Shown one piece after another: positions 1-10,435 of a DNA stretch of 10,435 bases. Under the pieces are notes generated by a model, which saw only the letters and a program-made list of their open reading frames with translations, was not told the origin of the DNA and did not search any database. A program made the translations under genes and the position numbers. This stretch comes from an uncultured Eubacteriales bacterium. GTDB lineage: Bacteria > Bacillota > Clostridia > Oscillospirales > Acutalibacteraceae. Position 1 is the stretch's first letter; the number at the start of each line of letters is the position of its first letter. Where the stretch lies: positions 1 to 10,435 of the forward strand of contig CAKSKO010000021.1 of the NCBI GenBank assembly GCA_934465125.1. Direction: 5' to 3'.

Positions 1-704
1 GTAATATATCTTGCGTCGTTTGACGCCAAAAATAAAACAGTCCCAGCGATATCATCCGGCGTTCCGAAGAAGCCCAATGGAATATTTCTTTTCATTTCCT
101 GTTTGATTTCGTCTTTGAGCTGATCGGTCATATCCGTTTCGATAAAACCGGGAGCTATGGCGTTGACTGTTACCCCCCGCGACGCGAACTCTTTTGCCGC
201 AGATTTTGTAAGGCCAATCACCCCCGCTTTCGATGCAGCATAATTTACCTGTCCTGCATTCCCAGAGAGTCCAACAACACTCGTCATATTGATAATACGT
301 CCGCTTCTTTGTTTTGTAAAAATGCGGCTGACATGCTTGATGCAATGAAACGTCCCTTTTAAATTGACGTCGAGTACCTTATTAAAATCTTCCTCGCTCA
401 TCCTCATCAGCAGTCCGTCGCAGGTAATCCCCGCGTTGTTGACTAGGATATCGAGTCTTCCGAATGTAAGAATCGTCGCCTTGATCATATCCATACATTG
501 CTTGTCGTCTGAAACATCCGCATGAATTACCTCTACTTTTGCACCGTGCTCTTCACAAAGACGTTTTGTTTCGAGCGCTGCACTTTCGTTTCCCGCATAA
601 TTGATCATCACATTTGCGCCTTTTTCAGCGAACCGCACACAGATCGCGCGCCCGATCCCACGGCTACCGCCTGTTACAAGCACCGTTTTTCCTGTATAAT
701 CCAT
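1..704 (-). CDS. fabG: 3-oxoacyl-ACP reductase FabG, C-terminus cut by window edge
   Basis: NADPH-dependent reductase of the 3-ketoacyl-ACP group, the first reduction of each FASII cycle; cytosolic short-chain dehydrogenase/reductase. The frame is open from ATG at 704 to the left edge, giving 234 residues; FabG is usually about 245-250, so roughly a dozen C-terminal residues are missing. Visible motifs are the Rossmann glycine motif TGGSRGIG (11-18), NNAG (89-92), and the catalytic set Asn114, Ser142, Tyr155 and Lys159 (YAASK), then the APGFIETDM segment near 184-192. AAGGGG at 714-719, inside the end of fabD, lies nine bases before the ATG. Only one base separates the fabD stop from this start, so translation is probably coupled to fabD. 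It is the last visible gene of the acpP-to-fabG operon. Family and role are certain within the SDR/FabG group because of the operon context. Confidence 0.96.
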   Translation of the reverse strand, partial: MDYTGKTVLVTGGSRGIGRAICVRFAEKGANVMINYAGNESAALETKRLCEEHGAKVEVIHADVSDDKQCMDMIKATILTFGRLDILVNNAGITCDGLLMRMSEEDFNKVLDVNLKGTFHCIKHVSRIFTKQRSGRIINMTSVVGLSGNAGQVNYAASKAGVIGLTKSAAKEFASRGVTVNAIAPGFIETDMTDQLKDEIKQEMKRNIPLGFFGTPDDIAGTVLFLASNDARYI

Positions 705-705
705 C

Positions 706-1638
706 TCAAAGTTCCCCTTTCAGCGCTTTTACTGTTTCAAAAAATCCCGGGACGTCTTGAATTTGATATAATCTAATCGATCGTGCTGTCTTTTTGATAA
801 ATCCGGAAAGTACCTTTCCCGGCCCGATTTCTACGATTGTATCGATCCCCATCGATTCCATCGTTTTGATCGATTGTTCAAAAAGTACCGACGATTTGAT
901 CTGCTTGACAAGAAGCTCCCTGATTTTTGTACTGTCGGCTAATGCTTCTCCTGTTGCATTAAATACAACAGGAAACTGCATCGGAGAAATTGTTACTTCA
1001 TCTAGCTTTTCAGCAAGCTTTTCAGATGCTTTTTCCATCAAACTGGTATGAAACGGTCCACTGACATTTAAAGAAACGCACCGTTTTGCCCCAAGTTTTT
1101 TTGCATGCTCAGCGGCTATTTCGACTGCATTCTTTTCTCCACCGATGACGATCTGTCCTGAGCAGTTGCGGTTTGCGATCTCGCAAACGCCGAGATCTTT
1201 CGCTTGAGCGACCGCCTGCTGCACCGCTTCTTCAGAAAGACCTAAAATCGCAATCATTTCGCTCTTGATTCCTGCTGTACTCTCTTCCATAATTTTACCG
1301 CGGTAAGCCGCTATAGAAAGGACTGTTTCTAAATTGAACGCCCCTGCAGCATAAAGTGCAGAATATTCCCCTAAGCTGAGCCCCGCTGCCGCAGAAGGAA
1401 CAATTTCTTCCCTTTTCAAAAGATCCGTTACCGCCGCTGCAAACGCAACCATACAAGGCTGTGTATATTTTGTCTGCGATAGTATTGTCTCAGGTCCTTC
1501 AAAGCAGAGCTTTTTTAAATCAAAATCGACCGGCGCGTTGTCAAACACATTCCTAACAGATAAAAATTGTTCATAAAAATCTTTTCCCATCGAGACCTTC
1601 TGGCTGCCCTGACCGGCATATACAAACGCTAATTTCAT
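706..1638 (-). CDS. fabD: Malonyl-CoA:ACP transacylase FabD
   Basis: Moves the malonyl group from malonyl-CoA, made by the carboxylase encoded upstream, to acyl carrier protein. The 310 residues match the usual family length. Visible motifs are the N-terminal GQGSQ (9-13), the nucleophile elbow GLSLGEY with Ser88, Arg113 in AYRGKIM, and catalytic His197 in GPFHTSLM. Gln246 corresponds to the oxyanion-region glutamine known from E. coli FabD. The ATG overlaps the fabK stop by four bases (ATGA), and GGAGGA at 1644-1649 is placed five bases before it, still inside the fabK frame. This arrangement predicts coupling to fabK translation. The upstream TGA in fabK could therefore also reduce FabD output, although the strong ribosome site may allow independent initiation. 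No damage is seen in fabD itself. Confidence 0.97.
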   Translation of the reverse strand: MKLAFVYAGQGSQKVSMGKDFYEQFLSVRNVFDNAPVDFDLKKLCFEGPETILSQTKYTQPCMVAFAAAVTDLLKREEIVPSAAAGLSLGEYSALYAAGAFNLETVLSIAAYRGKIMEESTAGIKSEMIAILGLSEEAVQQAVAQAKDLGVCEIANRNCSGQIVIGGEKNAVEIAAEHAKKLGAKRCVSLNVSGPFHTSLMEKASEKLAEKLDEVTISPMQFPVVFNATGEALADSTKIRELLVKQIKSSVLFEQSIKTMESMGIDTIVEIGPGKVLSGFIKKTARSIRLYQIQDVPGFFETVKALKGEL

Positions 1639-2582
1639 ATTTGTCCTCCAATCGACATATGCAGTGACTCTAAAACTGCCTTACTTTCCGATACCATCGA
1701 TTCAAAGATCTCTTTAATCGGACGGATTTCTTTTAATTGTCCGCTGACTTGCCCCGCCATCAGAGAACCCGTGTCAGTATCGCCGTCGAAAACAGCTCTT
1801 CTGAGCGCGCCCAATGTGTATTGTTCAAGCTCCATCTTATCGGCGCCCTCTTTTTCCCGCTTGAGATACTCCCTAGCCATTTTATTTTTTAGGATTCTAA
1901 CAGGAACTCCCGCTGTTCTTCCTGTTACGGTTGTTCCGGTATCCGATGCTTTTCAAACGGCTTTCTTATAATTTTCGTGAATCGGGCATTCGTTTGATAC
2001 CAAAAGACAAGTCCCAACCTGTACTCCAACTGCCCCTAGCGCAAACGCCGCCGCCATTTGCCTGCCGCTTGCAACTCCGCCCGCCGCAATGACCGGGATA
2101 TGAAGTGCATCGACAACCTGCGGAACAAGCGCCATCGTAGTAAGCTCTCCAACATGCCCACCGCTTTCTGTTCCTTCCGCAATGACTCCATCAACCCCTG
2201 CGCGCTGCATTCTTCTTGCGAGCGCAACACTCGGGACAACCGGCAATACAACGATTCCCTCTCTCTTAAACGATTCTACATACCGCTCCGGACTCCCCGC
2301 CCCGGTTGTTGCAACCGGAACCTTTTCTTCTACAACAATCTTTGCAATCTCATCGACTTTTGGGTGCATTAGCATAATATTGACACCAAACGGTTTATCA
2401 GTCTGTTCCCTTGCTTCTTTGATATGTTCACGCAGTTTTTCGGGGGTCATCCCTCCCGACGCAATCAATCCTAATCCACCTGCATTCGAAACCGCCGCTG
2501 CAAATTTTCCTGTTGAGATATTCGCCATTCCGCCTGCGATGATTGGATATTTGATTCCCAATAATTCTGCTATACTTTTCAT
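1635..2582 (-). pseudogene. fabK: Enoyl-ACP reductase FabK (FMN type), interrupted by an in-frame TGA
   Basis: FabK is the FMN- and NAD(P)H-dependent enoyl-ACP reductase that completes each FASII elongation cycle. The gene would encode 315 residues, a normal family length, but codon 210 is TGA (1953-1955). The first 209 residues form most of the FMN-binding TIM barrel: PIIAGGMA (13-20), GGLGLI, DKPFGVN, TTGAG, PVVPSVALA, the GGHVGELTT segment with His143, and VIAAGGVASG. After the TGA the same frame stays open for 105 codons and keeps family motifs (VTGR, GALRRAVFDGD, GSLMAGQVSG). From remembered FabK sequences, the TGA falls where a Leu is usual (Tyr-Lys-x-x-x-Leu-Lys-Ala); TTA to TGA is a single change. 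The ATG at 1880 in the C-terminal part has no ribosome site, so a separate second polypeptide is unlikely. Start at 2582 is chosen over an ATG at 2600 because GAGGAG (2590-2595) is seven bases before it. Sequencing error is the main alternative. Confidence 0.88.
1953..1955 (-). other. Premature in-frame TGA in fabK
   Basis: The codons read GTT TGA AAA GCA on the minus strand. The downstream stop of fabK, at 1635-1637, is in exactly the same frame, so this is a substitution and not a frameshift. Nearby genes (fabD, fabH, accD, and the fabK end itself) use TGA as their true stop directly before or within the next gene's start, which argues against TGA being a sense codon here. Confidence 0.9.
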
Positions 2583-2589
2583 CGTAACG

Positions 2590-2595
2590 CTCCTC
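2590..2595 (-). promoter_or_regulatory. fabK ribosome binding site that fixes the start
   Basis: GAGGAG seven bases upstream of ATG 2582. It lies across the fabH stop codon (2594-2596), so the fabK start at 2582 sits 11 bases after fabH and the ATG at 2600 is rejected. Confidence 0.8.
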
Positions 2596-3565
2596 ACCAT
2601 TTTAGCTGTACCGCACCATAAGTGAGTCCGCCTCCGAACCCGGCGCAGATGAGTTTCATGCCTTCTTTTAAAAGCCCCTTCTTTTCCATCTCATTAAGCG
2701 CTACCGGAATGCTGGCAGCCGAAGTGTTTCCACAGTGCTCAAGATTCGTATAGAATTTCTTCTCCTCTACACCGAGTTTTTTTGCTGCCGAAGACAAAAT
2801 CCGGTAGTTCGCTTGATGACATACAAAATAATCGATGTCTTCGATACTGCTATTTGACTGCACCAACAATTGCCGTACTGACTTCTGAATGCTATCAACA
2901 GCAAACCGGAATACTTCTCGTCCATTCATAAAGATATAGTGCTCTGGTTCCTTCTTTTGTTTTCCACCGAACGGCGTTCCCTTGTTTTGAACGCCTTTGC
3001 AGTAAATCGTTTCATCGGAACCCTGAACGCCGCAGAAAAAGCTTGAATCATACCCTTCCTGAAGCGTTAAAACAACTGCTCCGGAACCGTCTCCGAATAA
3101 TACGCATGTGTTTCGATCATGAAAATCGGTTACTTTCGAGATTGTTTCACTTCCGACTACGAGCGCATATTTCCCGGGCATACTCCGAAGTAAACTCTCG
3201 GCTGTATGCAGCGCATAGATAAACCCACTGCACGCCGCGTTCAGATCAAACGCGATTATCTGTTCTGGAAGCTCTAATTCCTTTTGAACAATACAAGCAG
3301 TCGACGGCGTCATATAATCCGGGGAAAACGTCGCGACAATCAAAACGCCGATCTTTTCTTTCTCAATTCCATTCTTTAGTGCATTTTTTGCCGCCTTGAC
3401 CGCCATTGTCGATGTATCTTCATCGACCACAAAATTTCTGCTTCGTATTCCTGTTCTCGATGAAATCCATTCATCGCTTGTGTCGACAATCTCTGACATC
3501 ATATCATTCGTAACCTTTTTCTCTGGAAGGTAGCTGCCTGTCGACAATATTTTTATTCCGTCCAT
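2594..3565 (-). CDS. fabH: Beta-ketoacyl-ACP synthase III FabH
   Basis: Condenses an acyl-CoA primer with malonyl-ACP to start fatty acid chains. The 323 residues match the family. The catalytic triad is visible: Cys112 in NAACSGF, His250 in CHQANYRI, and Asn280 in GNTSAAS. Other hallmarks are the N-terminal SSRTGIRSR (35-43), GDGSGAVVL near 158-166, and the C-terminal GFGGGLTYG. AAGGAG at 3571-3576 lies five bases before the ATG and overlaps the accA stop codon; the gap to accA is only nine bases. It lies directly downstream of the four carboxylase genes, so substrate production and chain initiation are co-transcribed. Acyl-CoA preference (acetyl or branched) cannot be read from the sequence. 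No anomalies. Confidence 0.97.
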   Translation of the reverse strand: MDGIKILSTGSYLPEKKVTNDMMSEIVDTSDEWISSRTGIRSRNFVVDEDTSTMAVKAAKNALKNGIEKEKIGVLIVATFSPDYMTPSTACIVQKELELPEQIIAFDLNAACSGFIYALHTAESLLRSMPGKYALVVGSETISKVTDFHDRNTCVLFGDGSGAVVLTLQEGYDSSFFCGVQGSDETIYCKGVQNKGTPFGGKQKKEPEHYIFMNGREVFRFAVDSIQKSVRQLLVQSNSSIEDIDYFVCHQANYRILSSAAKKLGVEEKKFYTNLEHCGNTSAASIPVALNEMEKKGLLKEGMKLICAGFGGGLTYGAVQLKW

Positions 3566-3574
3566 ATTTTCTCC

Positions 3575-4420
3575 TTATTTAAAATTCACCGCACCAATCT
3601 TCCGGTACTTTTCATACCGAAGACGCGGCAAATCACTTCGTTTCAGTTTCAGTAGTTCCATCAGCTCTTCTCTTACCGCAGATGAAACATCCACAATCGT
3701 TTTTGTACTGTTTTCCTGCGCGCCACCCTTCGGTTCTTCAATCACTCGATCACAAATCCCAAACTCCAATAAATCAAATGCAGTAAGTTTCATGATTTCA
3801 CTCGCTTCTCCGCTCCTACTTGAATCTTTCCATAAGATCGATGCAAATCCTTCTGGCGACAAGACAGAATAAATCGAATTTTCGAGCATGATCATCCTGT
3901 CGGCAACGCCCAGCGCCAGAGCACCACCGCTTCCACCTTCTCCAATTACAATTGATACAATCGGAACAGTAAGCGCACTCATCTCAAAAAGGTTTTTCGC
4001 GATCGCTTCGCCCTGCCCGCGTTCTTCAGCCTCCATCCCGGGATACGCGCCCGGCGTATCGATAAACGTAATGATTGGGCGCTTAAATTTTTCGGCCTGT
4101 TTAAAAAGACGTAGCGCCTTTCTGTACCCTTCTGGGTTCGGCATTCCAAAATTACAGTTTATATTCTCGTCAAGGTTTCTTCCCTTTTGGTGGCCGACAA
4201 TTGTAACGGGGATCTCGCAAAATGTCGCGATTCCGCCAACGATCGCGTGGTCGTCGCCAAACGCCCTGTCGCCATGCAACTCAAAGAAATCCGAGAACAT
4301 CGCATCGATATACTGCCTGATGTTCGGGCGCTTAGGATGTCTTGCCAATGCGACACGTTCTTGCGGGGTTAAATTTCTATTATTTAAAAACCGGAACCGG
4401 TTATTGTTCAACTTGTTCAC
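3575..4420 (-). CDS. accA: Acetyl-CoA carboxylase carboxyltransferase alpha subunit AccA
   Basis: The alpha half of the carboxyltransferase, which with AccD moves CO2 from carboxybiotin on AccB to acetyl-CoA. The product has 281 residues, shorter than the roughly 319 of E. coli because the N-terminal helical extension is reduced. Visible motifs are [12 protein letters not shown] (27-38), [11 protein letters not shown] (47-57), GHQKGRN (76-82), [13 protein letters not shown] (90-102), [10 protein letters not shown] (119-128), and the oxyanion-region [11 protein letters not shown] (160-170). The start given is GTG at 4420, which overlaps the accD TGA by four bases (GTGA); the ribosome site before it is weak (GGGCGG right next to the start), so initiation probably depends on coupling to accD. 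A TTG at about 4412 is a possible alternative start, so the first few residues are uncertain. Confidence 0.95.
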
Positions 4421-5286
4421 CGCCCATTCGTGTGAAAATTTAATAGTCTCGCAATCGTCTCTCTCATTTCTTTTCGCGAAACGATATGATCAACGAATCC
4501 ATGCTCCAAAACAAACTCCGCTCTTTGAAAGCCTTCTGGGAGTTTTTGATGGATTGTCTGCTCAATTACTCTTGGTCCTGCAAATCCGATCAGCGCTCCT
4601 GGCTCTGCTAAGATAATATCTCCTAAACTTGCAAAGCTCGCTGTTACTCCACCTGTTGTTGGATTTGTAAGATACGAGAGATAAAATCCTCCTTCATCGG
4701 AAAACCGCTTGAGTGCCGCTGAAGTCTTTGCCATCTGCATCAGAGAAAAAATTCCTTCCTGCATTCTAGCCCCACCGCTTGCTGAAAAAATAATCAGCGG
4801 TAACTTATTTTTTTTCGCGTATTCGACGCTTTGGGTAATCTTTTCCCCAACAACAGAGCCCATACTTCCCATTAAGAAGGAGCAGTCAAGAACCGATACA
4901 ACCGTTTTTTTGCCTGAAATCATACCAACCGCTGTAACCGCCGCCTCGCTCAGACCGCTTTTTTTCGATAAGCCTTCGAGTTTCTTTTCATACTCCGGAA
5001 AGGAGATCGGATTGTATCTTACCGTCTTTTTTAAAACTTCCTTATAGTTCCCGTCATCAAAAATCATCGAAAATCTCGTATGCGCTCCAATTTTTAAATG
5101 ATTTCCGCATTTCGGGCAAACATAACAATTATCTTTTAAAATAGACTTCGGATGGCCGGTATGGCATCCATCGCACCGAACAAATAAACCTTCAGGCGGA
5201 TCAATCGACTTTTGGTTGACTTTCTGAGGCCGCAAACTCTTGAGCAACTCAAGCGCACCCTTACGCTGAGAAAAAATTGAATCCAT
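4417..5286 (-). CDS. accD: Acetyl-CoA carboxylase carboxyltransferase beta subunit AccD
   Basis: The beta half of the carboxyltransferase, partner of AccA. The 289 residues match the family. An N-terminal four-cysteine zinc ribbon is present: Cys38 and Cys41 (CDGC), then Cys57 and Cys60 (CPKC), with an extra Cys54. The crotonase-fold core has the CoA-site segment [11 protein letters not shown] (168-178), [18 protein letters not shown] (206-223), and [15 protein letters not shown] (227-241). GGAAGG (5295-5300) lies eight bases before the ATG, and 15 bases separate it from accC. Its stop overlaps the accA start, fitting equal synthesis of the two subunits of the alpha2-beta2 enzyme. Confidence 0.97.
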
Positions 5287-5301
5287 AGTATCCGCCTTCC
5301 T

Positions 5302-6681
5302 TTACAAAATTGCAGAACGGATCGTATCTTCCGACAACAGCTCTTCGCTGTGTTTTTCGATAAATCCAGTGTCGTATCTTCCTTTGACGAAATCGAAGTT
5401 GTGTAAAATCAAGTAAAGCAGTCCGTGATTCGTTTTAACGCCATCAATTAAAAATTCCTCGAGTGCACGGCGCATCCGATAAATCGCCTGCATTCTTGTT
5501 GTCCCTTTAACAATAATTTTTGCTACCATCGAATCATAATGCGGGCTGATTTGATACCCTGCAAAAAGCGCGGTATCAACACGAACGTTATATCCACCCG
5601 GAAGATGCAGAAAGTTTACTGTTCCAGGGCACGGTATAAACCCATGAAGCGGGTCTTCCGCATTGATTCTGCATTCGATGGCATGTCCGGAAAGCTTGAC
5701 GTCCTCCTGCTTATAATCAAGCGCAAGACCCGACGCAATTCGAATCTGTTCTCTGACGATATCGATCCCTGTTACCATCTCCGTTACCGCATGTTCGACC
5801 TGAATCCTTGTATTCATCTCAATAAAATAAAAATTCTCATTCTGATCTACAACAAATTCAACCGTCCCGGCATTTGTATATCCAGAAGCCTTAGCCGCTA
5901 AAACAGCGGCCTTCCCCATTTTATCTCGCATCTTATCATCGATTGCTTTCGAGGGGGACTCCTCGATTAGCTTTTGATTCTTTCGTTGGATAGAACACTC
6001 CCGTTCTCCCAGATGAATCACATTTCCGTGGGTATCCGCCAAGATCTGAAATTCAATATGCTTTGGGTTTTCTATTAACTTTTCTAAGTAAACGCTGTCA
6101 TTTCCGAAACAAGACTTTGCCTCACTCTTAGCTGTTTGGTACGCATACTGTAAATCGTCCCTCGTATAAGCAATGCGCATTCCTCGTCCACCGCCGCCGG
6201 CTGTTGCTTTAATCAAAACTGGATATCCGATTTTCTCTGCTATTTTCTCTGCTTGATCGGCAGACTCGACAATCCCATTAGACCCCGGTACAACCGGCAC
6301 CCCATTTTCGAGCATCATTTCTCTGGCTGTTGATTTATCGCCCATCATCTTAATCACTTTGGCGCTCGGACCAATAAAATGGATACCACATTTTTTTAAA
6401 ATATCTGCAAACGCTGCGTTTTCAGACAACAAACCAAACCCCGGATGGACCCCATCACAATTGGTTTTGAGCGCTGCAGTAATGATATTCTGCATATTAA
6501 GGTAACTGTCTGCAGTCTTTGCAGGTCCAATACAAACAGCTTCATTTGCCAATTTTACATGCAGTGCGTCTTTATCGGCTAAAGAATAAACAGCCACCGT
6601 TTCAATATTCATTTCGCGGCATGCCCTAATGATGCGAACAGCTATTTCTCCGCGGTTTGCAACTAAAATTCGTTTCAGCAT
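5302..6681 (-). CDS. accC: Acetyl-CoA carboxylase biotin carboxylase subunit AccC
   Basis: ATP-grasp enzyme that carboxylates the biotin on AccB using bicarbonate and ATP. The product has 459 residues; the family is usually about 445-455. Visible features are the N-terminal ILVANRGEIAVRIIRAC (5-21), HPGFGLLSEN (79-88), Lys116 in MGDKS, Lys158, the glycine-rich ATP loop GGGGRGM (162-168), His208, Glu275 and Glu288, and EMNTRIQVEHAVTE (288-301) with Arg292. Where E. coli has RRHQK this protein has RKNQK (233-237), so the His is Asn; I recall Asn here in other Firmicutes, so I do not treat it as damage. GGAGAG (6688-6693) overlaps the end of accB and lies six bases before the ATG; three bases separate it from accB. 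Confidence 0.98.
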   Translation of the reverse strand: MLKRILVANRGEIAVRIIRACREMNIETVAVYSLADKDALHVKLANEAVCIGPAKTADSYLNMQNIITAALKTNCDGVHPGFGLLSENAAFADILKKCGIHFIGPSAKVIKMMGDKSTAREMMLENGVPVVPGSNGIVESADQAEKIAEKIGYPVLIKATAGGGGRGMRIAYTRDDLQYAYQTAKSEAKSCFGNDSVYLEKLIENPKHIEFQILADTHGNVIHLGERECSIQRKNQKLIEESPSKAIDDKMRDKMGKAAVLAAKASGYTNAGTVEFVVDQNENFYFIEMNTRIQVEHAVTEMVTGIDIVREQIRIASGLALDYKQEDVKLSGHAIECRINAEDPLHGFIPCPGTVNFLHLPGGYNVRVDTALFAGYQISPHYDSMVAKIIVKGTTRMQAIYRMRRALEEFLIDGVKTNHGLLYLILHNFDFVKGRYDTGFIEKHSEELLSEDTIRSAIL

Positions 6682-6684
6682 AGC

Positions 6685-7125
6685 TTACTCTCCAATTTCA
6701 AACAGAGGTTTTCCAAATTCGGTTAAATCTCCGTCTTCAAACAAAATCGATAAAATCGTACCGTTCCGGGGAGCTGTTATATCATGAAACATCTTCATCG
6801 CTTCAATCACACAAAGCTTCTGACCCTTTTTTACAGTTTGCCCAACCGATACGAACGGCGCGGCCCCTGGTTCAGGCGCCCGATACGCAACTCCGACAAT
6901 CGGTGATGTGACGATTTCTCCGGTAGACGGGTTCGTTTCGTTTTCATCTTCTTGTTTGATAACAGGAAAACAGTCGAGTTCTTCTTTCATCGTCGGCCCT
7001 ACAATTACTCTCTCGACAGTATCTTTCTTTAGTTCAATCTTCCCATTTTCATCCTTCATACAAAAAGAAGTCACCGACGATGCGTCAAACGCTTTGATTA
7101 GTTCTTTGATATCGTCTATTTTCAT
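6685..7125 (-). CDS. accB: Biotin carboxyl carrier protein AccB
   Basis: Carries the biotin that shuttles CO2 from AccC to AccA/AccD. The product has 146 residues: an N-terminal helical segment starting MKIDDIKELIKAF, an acidic, Asn-rich linker (about 55-75), and a biotinyl domain from about residue 73 to the end. The biotinylation motif is EAMKM with Lys111 as acceptor, and the conserved PMVG-type turn is present as SPIVG (74-78). ATG 7125 is preferred over the in-frame GTG at 7143 because GGAGGA (7132-7137) is six bases upstream of it and would lie inside the coding part of the longer form. Thirty-two bases separate it from acpP, the largest gap in the operon. Confidence 0.96.
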   Translation of the reverse strand: MKIDDIKELIKAFDASSVTSFCMKDENGKIELKKDTVERVIVGPTMKEELDCFPVIKQEDENETNPSTGEIVTSPIVGVAYRAPEPGAAPFVSVGQTVKKGQKLCVIEAMKMFHDITAPRNGTILSILFEDGDLTEFGKPLFEIGE

Positions 7126-7131
7126 CTTACT

Positions 7132-7137
7132 TCCTCC
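7132..7137 (-). promoter_or_regulatory. accB ribosome binding site that fixes the start
   Basis: GGAGGA, six bases before ATG 7125, within the longer purine run GGAGGGAGGAAG. It rules out the GTG at 7143 as the main start. Confidence 0.85.
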
Positions 7138-7157
7138 CTCCACATTTCTATCACATC

Positions 7158-7388
7158 TTATTTCTGAGAATCAATAAACGAAACAATATCCTTCACCGTT
7201 TTAAACTCCGCCATATTATTGTCATCAATTGTTATCGAGAATTCCTCTTCAATTGCCATGCTTAGTTCCACCGCGTCTAGCGAGTCTGCTCCAAGATCTT
7301 CTGATAAATTTGCTTGAAGCGTTACTTCTTCTAAATCACAGTTAAATGTCTCAACAATAATCTCTTGTACTTTTTCAAATGTGCTCAT
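7158..7388 (-). CDS. acpP: Acyl carrier protein
   Basis: Small acidic protein that carries the growing chain on 4'-phosphopantetheine. The product has 76 residues, typical for ACP. The attachment motif GADSLDAVEL is present with Ser36 as the modified residue; the first helix (about 3-15), the long acidic helix II after Ser36, and the C-terminal VKDIVSFID helix are all recognisable. Start 7388 is chosen because GAGGAG (7396-7401) is seven bases upstream; an in-frame ATG at 7403 would place this ribosome site inside the gene. It is the first gene of the operon, behind a consensus-like promoter. Being first and having the strongest site fits the high ACP demand of FASII. Confidence 0.97.
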   Translation of the reverse strand: MSTFEKVQEIIVETFNCDLEEVTLQANLSEDLGADSLDAVELSMAIEEEFSITIDDNNMAEFKTVKDIVSFIDSQK

Positions 7389-7395
7389 TTTTATT

Positions 7396-7401
7396 CTCCT
7401 C
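7396..7401 (-). promoter_or_regulatory. acpP ribosome binding site that fixes the start
   Basis: GAGGAG with a seven-base spacer to ATG 7388. It excludes the in-frame ATG at 7403. Confidence 0.85.
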
Positions 7402-7410
7402 ATAAAACAC

Positions 7411-7687: not shown

Positions 7688-8965
7688 ATGATAATTCATG
7701 TAGTAAAAAGCGGTGAAACAGCTTATACGATTGCAAATCAGTACGGTGTTTCCCCAAGACGATTTATTTTTGACAATCAGCTTTCTCATCCAAACAATCT
7801 TGTAATTGGGCAATCACTGTTAGTCTTATTTCCAGAAACAGTTCATCGCGTGCAGGAAAATGAAACTCTTTACTCCATTGCAAACTCCTATAGCGTCTCT
7901 GTTATGGATATTATCAGAAATAACCCTTATCTCATTACAAACAGATACTTAGAACCCGGGTCATTCTTGATCATCCACTACACCGATGATAAGCTCGGAA
8001 CACTGAATATCGGCGGTTATGCATACCCGTATATTGAACAACCTGTTCTTAGGGAAACCCTTCCTTATCTCACACGTCTGCTTTTATTTTCCTATGGATT
8101 TACAACCTCCGGAGAACTGGTCCCACTGGAAGACAATGCGCTAATAGAATCTGCAGAGACCTTCGGAGTCTCACCAATTCTGGTACTGACGCCGTTGGAT
8201 CAAGAAGGGAAATTTAATAACCGGCTTGTCAGCGCAATTGCAAATGACCCTTCCGCCCGCCAAACTCTCATTGGCAATTTACTTGAAACTGTCCGCAGTA
8301 AGGGATACTCCGGGGTCGACGTCGATTTCGAATATATTTTGCCAGAGGATAAAGACGCTTATGCGTCTTTTGTCTCGGAGCTGACTACCGCAATGAATCG
8401 AGAAGGGTATGGGGTATCTGTAGCACTTGCGCCAAAAATATCGTCTGAACAAGAAGAACTTCTCTATGCCGGAATGGATTATCAAAAATTGGGGCAAAGC
8501 GCCAACAGCGTGCTGCTGATGACTTATGAATGGGGATATACTTATGGTCCTCCGATGGCTGTCGCACCGATCAATAAGGTCCGTGAGGTGCTCGATTACG
8601 CTGTTACCCAGATCCCCAGAGAAAAAATTGATATGGGGATCCCGAATTACGGGTACGACTGGATTTTACCCTTTGTCAAGGGGACAACAAGAGCTACTTT
8701 AATCGGAAATGTGCAGGCAGTAGAGATTGCATTCCAAAATAATGCGCAGATCAAATTCGATCTAACCGCGATGTCTCCCTACTTTGAGTATACAAAAAAC
8801 GGACTTTCCCATATCGTTTGGTTCGAAGACGTTCGCAGCATCAACGAAAAGCTCCGTACCATTTCTGAATATGGATTCCGCGGCGCTGGGTACTGGAACA
8901 TTATGCGCCCGTTCCGGCAAAATTGGTTGCTCGCCAACGCGTTATTCGATATCGTATCAGAATAA
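7688..8965 (+). CDS. LysM-LysM-GH18 spore peptidoglycan hydrolase (SleL/YaaH-like)
   Basis: Predicted N-acetylglucosaminidase-type hydrolase of spore cortex peptidoglycan, probably held in the spore coat and active at germination. The 425 residues contain two N-terminal LysM domains (about 3-48, starting IHVVKSGETAYTIANQYGV, and about 52-97, HRVQENETLYSIANSY) and a GH18 barrel (about 105-425). The catalytic motif is GVDVDFEY with Asp211, Asp213 and the proton-donor Glu215. There is no Sec signal peptide; the protein starts directly with LysM, as SleL/YaaH proteins do. The ribosome site AGAGG (7671-7675) is rather far, 12 bases, from the ATG; GGTG at 7678-7681 is closer but weak. It is divergent from the fatty-acid operon, with its own promoter candidate. 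It could be named sleL, yaaH or ydhD; the exact paralogue cannot be decided here. Confidence 0.9.
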   Translation: MIIHVVKSGETAYTIANQYGVSPRRFIFDNQLSHPNNLVIGQSLLVLFPETVHRVQENETLYSIANSYSVSVMDIIRNNPYLITNRYLEPGSFLIIHYTDDKLGTLNIGGYAYPYIEQPVLRETLPYLTRLLLFSYGFTTSGELVPLEDNALIESAETFGVSPILVLTPLDQEGKFNNRLVSAIANDPSARQTLIGNLLETVRSKGYSGVDVDFEYILPEDKDAYASFVSELTTAMNREGYGVSVALAPKISSEQEELLYAGMDYQKLGQSANSVLLMTYEWGYTYGPPMAVAPINKVREVLDYAVTQIPREKIDMGIPNYGYDWILPFVKGTTRATLIGNVQAVEIAFQNNAQIKFDLTAMSPYFEYTKNGLSHIVWFEDVRSINEKLRTISEYGFRGAGYWNIMRPFRQNWLLANALFDIVSE

Positions 8966-9007
8966 AAAATCAGACGAATATTTCATTTTATCAAAATCGC
9001 AAAAATA

Positions 9008-9037
9008 AAAAAGAGCCGCCATTGGGCAGCCCTTTTT
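9008..9037 (-). terminator. Rho-independent terminator, better formed in minus-strand RNA
   Basis: The arms 9008-9020 and 9025-9037 enclose a four-base loop. In minus-strand RNA all 13 pairs form (two of them G-U) and the hairpin is followed by a U run (CUCUUUUUUAUUUUU). In plus-strand RNA the same two positions are A-C mismatches, although a U run (CUUUUUAUU) also follows. It may serve the GH18 gene, which ends 42 bases before it, but the pairing favours the minus-strand repeat gene, whose decayed tail points towards it. Confidence 0.7.
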
Positions 9038-9150
9038 ATTCAAGTTTTCACTCTTTGTCTACCATTCACAGAATTTCTCTTAATAAACAGATAAAAAGGT
9101 ACTGTATTAAAACACCCCTTTATCAAAAAATTACCAATATATTTATTCTA

Positions 9151-9199
9151 TGATTTGCCCTGTGTATCAATAGGTTTTCTTTTGATACACAAAAAATCA
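9151..9199. repeat. Imperfect 16-bp inverted repeat
   Basis: TGTGTATCAA (9161-9170) pairs perfectly with TTGATACACA (9182-9191) around an 11-base loop. An outer TGATTT (9151-9156) pairs with AAATCA (9194-9199) after a small internal loop. No U run follows on either strand, so it is not an ordinary terminator. It sits at the far end of the decayed repeat region. Function unknown. Confidence 0.55.
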
Positions 9200-9439
9200 C
9201 GAAAGTTTCATATCCTGCGCAGAGCCACCCGACCCTAATGTTATACAATTACGCATTCAAAAAGTCTCTTAGGATATTTTCCCTGCAAAGCAATGGACGG
9301 TATAATCTCCAAACAGGTTGAGGTTTTTCTGAAAATTGTTTTGGCTGAATACGAAACTAAACACCCAACTCTTAAAACTCATCCCCCTTCCGGCCATTCT
9401 TCATACAACGCCCGCTGTGCAAGCTTTTAAGTTTCATGG
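9190..9439 (-). pseudogene. Decayed 3' extension of the 28-residue repeat gene
   Basis: This stretch lacks a real gene but continues the repeat pattern of its right-hand neighbour in a shifted frame. Translating from 9438 leftwards gives NGRKGDEF-stop-ELGV-stop (9357-9398), matching the intact unit NGWKGGDLVELGV with Trp changed to Arg. The same frame later gives DFLNA-stop-LYNIRVGW and then ETFVIFCV, matching DQFDACNINLAIRFGW and DDFVALGV. The Gly-Trp-position codons lie at 9390-9392 (CGG), 9309-9311 (TGG) and 9225-9227 (TGG), spaced 81 and 84 bases, the period of the intact array. At the DNA level ATTAGGGTCGGGTGG here and ATTAGGTTCGGCTGG in the last intact unit differ at two of 15 bases. 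Two units are convincing; the middle one is weak apart from spacing. Left of about 9190 the match fades. Confidence 0.75.
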
Positions 9440-10435
9440 TCACCTTCTAATGCCAAGCGCCTCAAAGTCCTCATCTGTCCAGCCGAACCTAATCGCAAGA
9501 TTGATGTTGCATGCATCAAATTGGTCACCACGAACGCCAAGCGCCACAAAGTCATCTACTGTCCAGCCGTGCTTAAGCGCATGATCGATTTCGAGTTTAC
9601 TAAAATAGTCACCACGAACGTCAAGCGCCACAAAGTCATCTACTGTCCAGCCGCAAGTAAGCGCACTATGGATGCAGTTCCAATCAAAATGGTCGCCACG
9701 AATGCCAACCGCCTGAAAGTCATCTACTGTCCAGCCTTCTCGAATCAAAAGACTCTTGAACTGCCGATCAAAATGGTCGCCAGGAACGTGAAGCGCCTGA
9801 AAGTCAGCTCCTTTCCATCCGTACGTAATCACAAGCTGGTAGTTGAGCCGCCCATTAAAACAGTCGCCAGGAACGCCAAGCGCCACAAAGTCAGCTACTG
9901 TCCAGCCTTGTTCAAGCGCACTCCAGATGTTGCTCCCATTAAAACAGTTGCCAGGAACGTGAAGCGCCTGAAAGTCAGCTACTGTCCAGCCGTTTCGAAG
10001 CAAACGACCGATGTGAAGGTCAAAATAGTCGCCAGGAACGCCAACCGCCACAAAGTCATCTACTGTCCAGCCTTGGTCAAGCGCATGATCGATGTTGTTT
10101 ATATCAAATCGGTTACCACGAACGCCAACCGCCTGAAAGTCAGCTCCTTTCCAGCCGTGTTCAAGCGCATGATCAATGTTGGTTGCATTAAAGCCACGAA
10201 CGCCAAGCACCTGAAAGTTCTTTACTGTCCAGCCTTGGTCAAGCGCATGCTCGATGTTGGTTTCACTAAATCGGTTACCAGGAACGCCAAGCTCCACCAA
10301 GTCACCTCCTTTCCAGCCGTTTCGAATCAAAAAACTGATTTGATCCCCATTAAAATGGTCACCACGAACTCCAATCGCCGCAAAATCATCTCCGTTCCAG
10401 CCGCGCTCCCAAGCACAAAAATTGATCTGCTCTAC
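9440..10435 (-). CDS. Unrecognised protein made of 28-residue tandem repeats, N-terminus off window
   Basis: I do not recognise the family. The frame is open from the right edge to TGA at 9440-9442 (331 codons); an internal TTG at 10330 is not a convincing start because the same repeat continues upstream of it to the edge. The visible protein is entirely repeats: a segment GWTVDDFVALGV (or GWKGADFQALHV), a short RGDxF or PGNxF turn, then DxxNIDHALxx leading to the next GW. This pattern suggests two short helices per unit and an alpha solenoid, as in binding scaffolds. There are no catalytic motifs, and membrane or signal sequences cannot be judged without the N-terminus. The C-terminus, ALGIRR, stops mid-unit at the point where an extra base breaks the frame, so the protein appears truncated relative to its ancestor. 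Neighbours give no functional clue; it faces the spore hydrolase tail to tail. Confidence 0.85.
   Translation of the reverse strand, partial: VEQINFCAWERGWNGDDFAAIGVRGDHFNGDQISFLIRNGWKGGDLVELGVPGNRFSETNIEHALDQGWTVKNFQVLGVRGFNATNIDHALEHGWKGADFQAVGVRGNRFDINNIDHALDQGWTVDDFVAVGVPGDYFDLHIGRLLRNGWTVADFQALHVPGNCFNGSNIWSALEQGWTVADFVALGVPGDCFNGRLNYQLVITYGWKGADFQALHVPGDHFDRQFKSLLIREGWTVDDFQAVGIRGDHFDWNCIHSALTCGWTVDDFVALDVRGDYFSKLEIDHALKHGWTVDDFVALGVRGDQFDACNINLAIRFGWTDEDFEALGIRR
9448..10435 (-). repeat. Tandem repeat array, 84-base period, 12 visible units
   Basis: The Gly-Trp codon pair that marks each unit has left ends at 9479, 9563, 9647, 9731, 9815, 9902, 9986, 10067, 10151, 10229, 10313 and 10397. 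The steps are 84 bases except for 87, 81 and 78, always multiples of three. Copies are near-identical in patches: AAAGTCATCTACTGTCCAGC on the plus strand recurs at four units (ending about 9567, 9651, 9735 and 10071), and the GGAACGTGAAGCGCCTGAAA patch recurs at two. Patchwork identity suggests recent duplication or gene conversion between units. Confidence 0.95.

Follow-up and report, generated by a model that had tools for sequence, protein, structure and literature searches.

The repeat gene and its neighbourhood

The window (the whole stretch of DNA analysed, 10,435 nucleotides) ends inside a gene for a repeat protein, encoded on the minus strand by a frame that ORF listing and translation show to be open for 331 codons from 10435 down to a stop codon at 9440–9442 (9440–10435 in all, the 5′ end lying outside the window). 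Twelve units had been announced in the original prediction, and twelve Gly-Trp starts do stand in this frame, but 11 of them open a complete unit and the last opens a half unit of just 14 residues. By unit delimitation and alignment, the complete units occupy, in protein order and all on the minus strand, 10319–10402 (unit 1, 28 residues), 10235–10318 (unit 2, 28), 10157–10234 (unit 3, 26, lacking alignment positions 15–16), 10073–10156 (unit 4, 28), 9992–10072 (unit 5, 27), 9908–9991 (unit 6, 28), 9821–9907 (unit 7, 29), 9737–9820 (unit 8, 28), 9653–9736 (unit 9, 28), 9569–9652 (unit 10, 28) and 9485–9568 (unit 11, 28). The half unit, GWTDEDFEALGIRR, lies at 9443–9484 (−), is modelled with a helix at residues 321–326, and may serve as a cap.

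At the other end, the last 11 residues of a preceding unit (10403–10435, −; modelled as a helix at residues 2–10) stand at the window edge, so the array extends past the window, which truncates the gene. The earliest possible in-frame start that the window offers, a TTG at 10330, falls inside unit 1; the true start is therefore probably upstream of the window edge. With a pI of 4.75, the visible protein is acidic: Asp and Glu number 36 and 11, Lys and Arg 7 and 18.

The periodicity of the array is far beyond chance: base identity reaches 0.572 at a lag of 84, whereas 500 base shuffles, each scored at the best of lags 78–90, never exceed 0.309, and TRF returns the same array with period 84 and a score of 461. 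Contrary to what had been claimed, the period is not exact but holds for 8 of the 11 units; the three that depart from 28 residues do so by whole codons (−6, −3 and +3 bases), such that the frame is kept.

The array gene converges on a LysM-GH18 gene (7688–8965, +; Pfam), which has at least 590 tblastn-confirmed relatives among genome contigs, the nearest among the matches listed sharing 57–62% identity and lying in Ruminococcus, Lachnoclostridium, Diplocloster and Candidatus Pelethocola contigs. The DNA retrieved around 80 of these at least 590 loci, several of them short contigs, carries no array copy. Downstream of the closest GH18 relative among the matches listed (locus L001, 62% identity) stands another gene, which by eye looks Ig-like and InlB-like. 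Beyond the LysM-GH18 gene and divergent from it lies a compact fatty-acid synthesis cluster (3–7403, −) with Pfam matches to acyl carrier protein, biotin carboxyl carrier, biotin carboxylase, two carboxyltransferase subunits, ketoacyl-ACP synthase III and acyl transferase; where this cluster meets the window edge sits an SDR-type reductase that by eye resembles FabG. Within it, a gene matching NMO (1635–2600, −), which we take to be fabK-like, is split over two ORFs (1953–2600, E 2.3e-58; 1635–1880, E 0.0006, below the cut-off) that match different parts of one Pfam profile; the gene may truly be disrupted, or the split may stem from an error in sequencing.

A scan of 8900–10435 lists a terminator-like hairpin downstream of the array (9090–9124, −) among three such sites, where 1.8 would be expected (sd 1.3; not significant), and returns no promoter-like site. 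A second terminator-like hairpin (9008–9037, listed as −), in the stretch that separates the GH18 gene from the array, has A/T tracts on both sides and possibly acts bidirectionally. The neighbourhood offers no hint of the function of the array protein.

Repeat unit, predicted fold and searches for relatives

Alignment of the 11 full units (29 columns) bears out the pattern of shared positions that had been proposed for the unit, with G1, W2, G14 and F17 invariant and D6, F7 and V12 conserved in at least 90%. Columns 23, 26 and 27 are hydrophobic in 10, 11 and 11 of the 11 units, and these conserved positions of the second helix (helix B) are spaced as for a buried face. Variability is highest in eight columns (16, 19, 21, 22, 24, 25, 28 and 29), all in and around helix B.

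A single-sequence AF2 model of the array (pLDDT 88.0, pTM 0.77) contains 24 helices of at least four residues and no strand (DSSP), although one of the five models reached a pLDDT of just 59.0. Each unit is modelled with helix A at approximately positions 4–9 and helix B at approximately 19–27, and most with a helical turn at 14–16; this three-residue turn, which the original prediction had not foreseen, is separate in 9 of the 11 units. The two helices per unit and the stacked superhelix that it did foresee are both present in this model, in which all-helical tandem units stack into an elongated superhelix, the arrangement that defines an alpha-solenoid. Nor did the visible array come out as something other than a regular solenoid, the outcome named in advance as counting against the idea. 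It is a known weakness of AF2 that, given no alignment, it may produce confident but mistaken models of repeats; the antisense control, likewise modelled without an alignment, gave an all-beta solenoid (pLDDT 72.0, pTM 0.76), and confident yet unrealistic beta-solenoids predicted by AF2 from perfect random repeats are described in PMC11795689, which also reports that AlphaFold3 and ESMFold assign much lower confidence to beta-solenoids of random repeats. On the strength of the model, an all-helical alpha-solenoid is the probable fold of the array.

Searches for relatives were made at the level of proteins, contigs and genomes. Among approximately 5.8 billion proteins, 2758 candidates were scored at E 0.001 and, at E 1, the 7994 and 7996 candidates sharing most words; none was accepted as an array relative, in searches that covered lengths of approximately 170–1740 residues, required shared five-residue words and did not recover the window's own protein either. 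The back-translated pattern matched 32 stretches in genome contigs and 98 in viral contigs, none confirmed by tblastn; a single-protein query matched no stretch of the viral contigs, and tblastn of phage and plasmid records gave zero matches to the array up to E = 1. The only match of a two-motif pattern, on viral contig L091, was judged by eye to be a different and unrelated repeat. At 2380–2908 this contig encodes a large predicted protein with an 84-base repeat of its own, rich in Gly-Tyr and Gly-Trp.

A two-unit profile found an array relative in 0 of 6, 0 of 397, 0 of 200 and 0 of 394 genomes. In a further set of 391 it gave 0 matches at E 0.001 and 49 at E 1 (best 0.0049), and the eight of these with loci examined lack two good tandem copies. 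In 2 of 398 genomes it matched at E 0.001, each time a single short stretch with no tandem copies; both were rejected as chance, being single stretches in proteins without tandem repeats (presumably ferredoxin-type DUF362 proteins). These 1786 genome searches drew on partly overlapping sets (six genomes from which loci came; the family and the class to which the L002 genome belongs; the family, order and phylum of the L001 genome) and included no known positive, such that their empty result shows little. That no relative was found in the sets searched does not mean that none exists, and the array is known from one truncated copy.

Coding strand and divergence among units

Both in-phase strands are open across the array, as is common where a repeated unit lacks stops and keeps the frame. 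The GC content by codon position in the minus frame is coding-like (0.627/0.392/0.473), and its codon-usage score per codon is the best of the six frames (−0.007, with −0.072 for the plus in-phase frame and −0.249 or lower for the other four). It falls below all eight neighbouring-gene stretches (0.099 to 0.276), in a comparison that favours those stretches, since the codon table was derived from them. Over their first 18 codons, units have a residue identity of 0.564 in the minus frame, which does not exceed that in the other two sense frames (0.567 and 0.578).

The 11 units share on average 71% of their DNA (0.711 over all pairs) and 49% of their residues. In the gene frame, dN/dS between units is 1.99 (Nei–Gojobori; bootstrap over codon columns 1.11–4.13, P(≤1) 0.009) and remains at 1.89–2.32 when any one unit is omitted. 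Third codon positions are less variable there than a randomly drawn third of the columns (P = 0.016). For the remaining five frames the ratio is 0.81, 0.65, 0.80, 1.96 and 0.47. The 1.96 comes from the one-shifted antisense frame, whose third positions coincide with those of the gene frame but which is interrupted by 15 or 16 stops; dN/dS alone therefore picks out no single frame. If the minus frame codes, the excess suggests that amino-acid diversity has been selected on one face of the protein, as read from few columns, with a simple method, and from units that share descent and may have exchanged sequence. DNA identity between units hardly changes with their distance (0.721 at lag 1, 0.731 at lag 4 and 0.684 at lag 5), which is compatible with the suggestion that the repeats recombine or exchange units, though it does not prove it.

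We weighed two accounts in which the minus frame would not encode a functional protein. In one, the plus strand codes, through an ORF at 9521–10435 that is open for 305 codons, runs off the window and would yield a very basic protein. In its favour, its dN/dS is 0.80, its model has a pTM of 0.76 and, over whole units, the mean entropies of codon positions 1, 2 and 3 are 0.435, 0.714 and 0.732, a pattern that mild constraint would give. Against this, the dN/dS interval (0.55–1.20) includes 1, second positions are as variable as third and more so in the first 18 codons (308 versus 259 differences), the codon score is lower than that of the minus frame, the pI would be 10.71, and the all-beta model with its pLDDT of 72.0 belongs to the class of AF2 artefact described in PMC11795689; we consider this account very unlikely.

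The other, which we consider unlikely but less so, is that the array is a non-coding or incidentally open 84-base minisatellite, perhaps a newborn gene, whose stop-free unit opens both strands without serving any function. The openness of both in-phase strands, the weak codon usage of the minus frame, the lack of array relatives in the searches made, and inter-unit residue identities that are alike in all three sense frames (0.564–0.578 in the first 18 codons) speak for it. It sits poorly with the retention of hydrophobic positions while others vary, with third positions being the least variable, with length changes that are whole codons in three cases of three, and with AF2 being surer of the minus frame than of its antisense (pLDDT 88.0 versus 72.0). 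From these several indirect lines, we hold with good but not complete confidence that the minus strand is the coding strand.

A candidate binding scaffold and its comparison with known systems

We lean, if only slightly, towards a reading in which the frame is the 3′ portion of a gene and its product an acidic alpha-solenoid that serves as a binding scaffold, diversified on the surface of helix B. Between units, the core would be built from the conserved Gly-Trp, Phe, Ile and Leu positions. From unit to unit, the outer side of helix B, together with what flanks it, would line up into an unbroken ribbon to which a protein or peptide partner binds; duplicated or exchanged units would then diverge through selected amino-acid changes on this ribbon. 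The variable positions would be surface-exposed on this reading, which uses no measured coordinates, and the low pI (4.75) leads us to infer a protein rather than a nucleic-acid partner. The surplus of differences that change an amino acid lends some support to the earlier description of the array as a binding scaffold, although binding itself is still an inference. A bolder extension, which we put forward as speculative and doubtful, is that the protein founds a new alpha-solenoid family, lineage-specific and perhaps arisen when an 84-base unit was amplified, with a helix B surface that positive selection diversifies as a partner, for example a phage, a competitor or a host molecule, changes. 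Were the protein to face such a partner, the variable ribbon would mark the place where the partner binds; an orphan array with an inter-unit dN/dS near 2 would also be a case for how repeat proteins arise.

Profile searches place the unit in no described family. Seven Pfam families are listed for the whole protein up to E = 10, none above its own cut-off, and the best Pfam score of ten two-unit pieces is E 0.03; NCBIfam profiles reach only E 1.5, PDB sequences give zero matches up to E = 10, PADLOC anti-phage defence profiles give only a HicA-like match (E 0.23, no single passing stretch), and PHROGs hold no family with a passing stretch that survives in two-unit pieces. Two candidates were rejected: DUF5609 (Pfam; E 0.00042, 20.5 bits against a cut-off of 25), in which no single stretch passes and which is absent from the two-unit pieces, and phrog_30481 (PHROGs; E 5.9e-06), again with no passing stretch and matched by 2 of 10 two-unit pieces at 0.066 at best. 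As no single stretch passes in either, both scores look summed over units. Pfam includes models of TPR, Sel1, HEAT, LRR, PPR, Pumilio, TAL and pentapeptide repeats, and all of these are absent from the list up to E = 10; ankyrin families are likewise missing, both for the whole protein (up to E = 10) and for 10 of 10 two-unit pieces (up to E = 1). The original prediction's view that the array cannot be assigned to TPR, ankyrin, Sel1, HEAT, LRR or pentapeptide repeats is supported, and the strong profile match to a described repeat family that it had named as grounds for abandoning it did not appear in the libraries searched. The titles and abstract openings listed by literature searches, for which the motif itself was not a text query, hold no description of this motif.

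Structural comparison of the array model gave matches with E-values and TM-scores at odds: the best Foldseek match in the PDB is a designed protein at E 3.0e-05 but TM 0.12, the best in a viral library has E 6.3e-04 and TM 0.22, and the top TM-score among the viral matches listed is 0.38 (E 8.2e-03). None of these matches is convincing as the same fold, and all were rejected.

Among the closest known systems is the ankyrin repeat. It tops the structural re-alignment rows for the model, the modelled unit has two short helices, and the array carries Gly-x-Thr ahead of the first helix, which is an ankyrin pattern. The array could be supposed to be a diverged, shortened ankyrin-type solenoid whose ancestral unit lost its beta-hairpin finger and drifted past sequence recognition. 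Ankyrin units carry such a finger between them, whereas the array model, by DSSP of a prediction and not of a structure, has no strand. The ankyrin unit is given as 30–34 residues in PMC11514114, against 26–29 in all 11 full units here. The invariant Trp after Gly and, in most units, the additional helical turn between the helices are further differences. With no profile match, a short unit and no strands in the model, membership in the ankyrin family fails, and we consider descent from it improbable, more so than the minisatellite and less so than a coding plus strand.

Armadillo proteins (importin-alpha and designed armadillo) take rank 2 and several more places among the best Foldseek matches, at TM-scores of 0.10–0.26 and E 0.022 or worse among the matches listed. 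Armadillo repeats are modular peptide-binding solenoids, with a unit of approximately 42 residues and three helices. TAL-type and other sequence-reading helical repeats resemble the array, by analogy only, in being related units with a few variable residues; TAL repeats vary at two positions, whereas the eight most variable columns of the array spread over half the unit, its protein is acidic (pI 4.75), and it has no accepted Pfam match. The array unit matches no family in the libraries tested, while alpha-solenoid scaffolds are themselves well known; among them, a natural 28-residue helical repeat that combines a constant core with a face that varies would make a compact scaffold, of a use comparable to that of DARPins.
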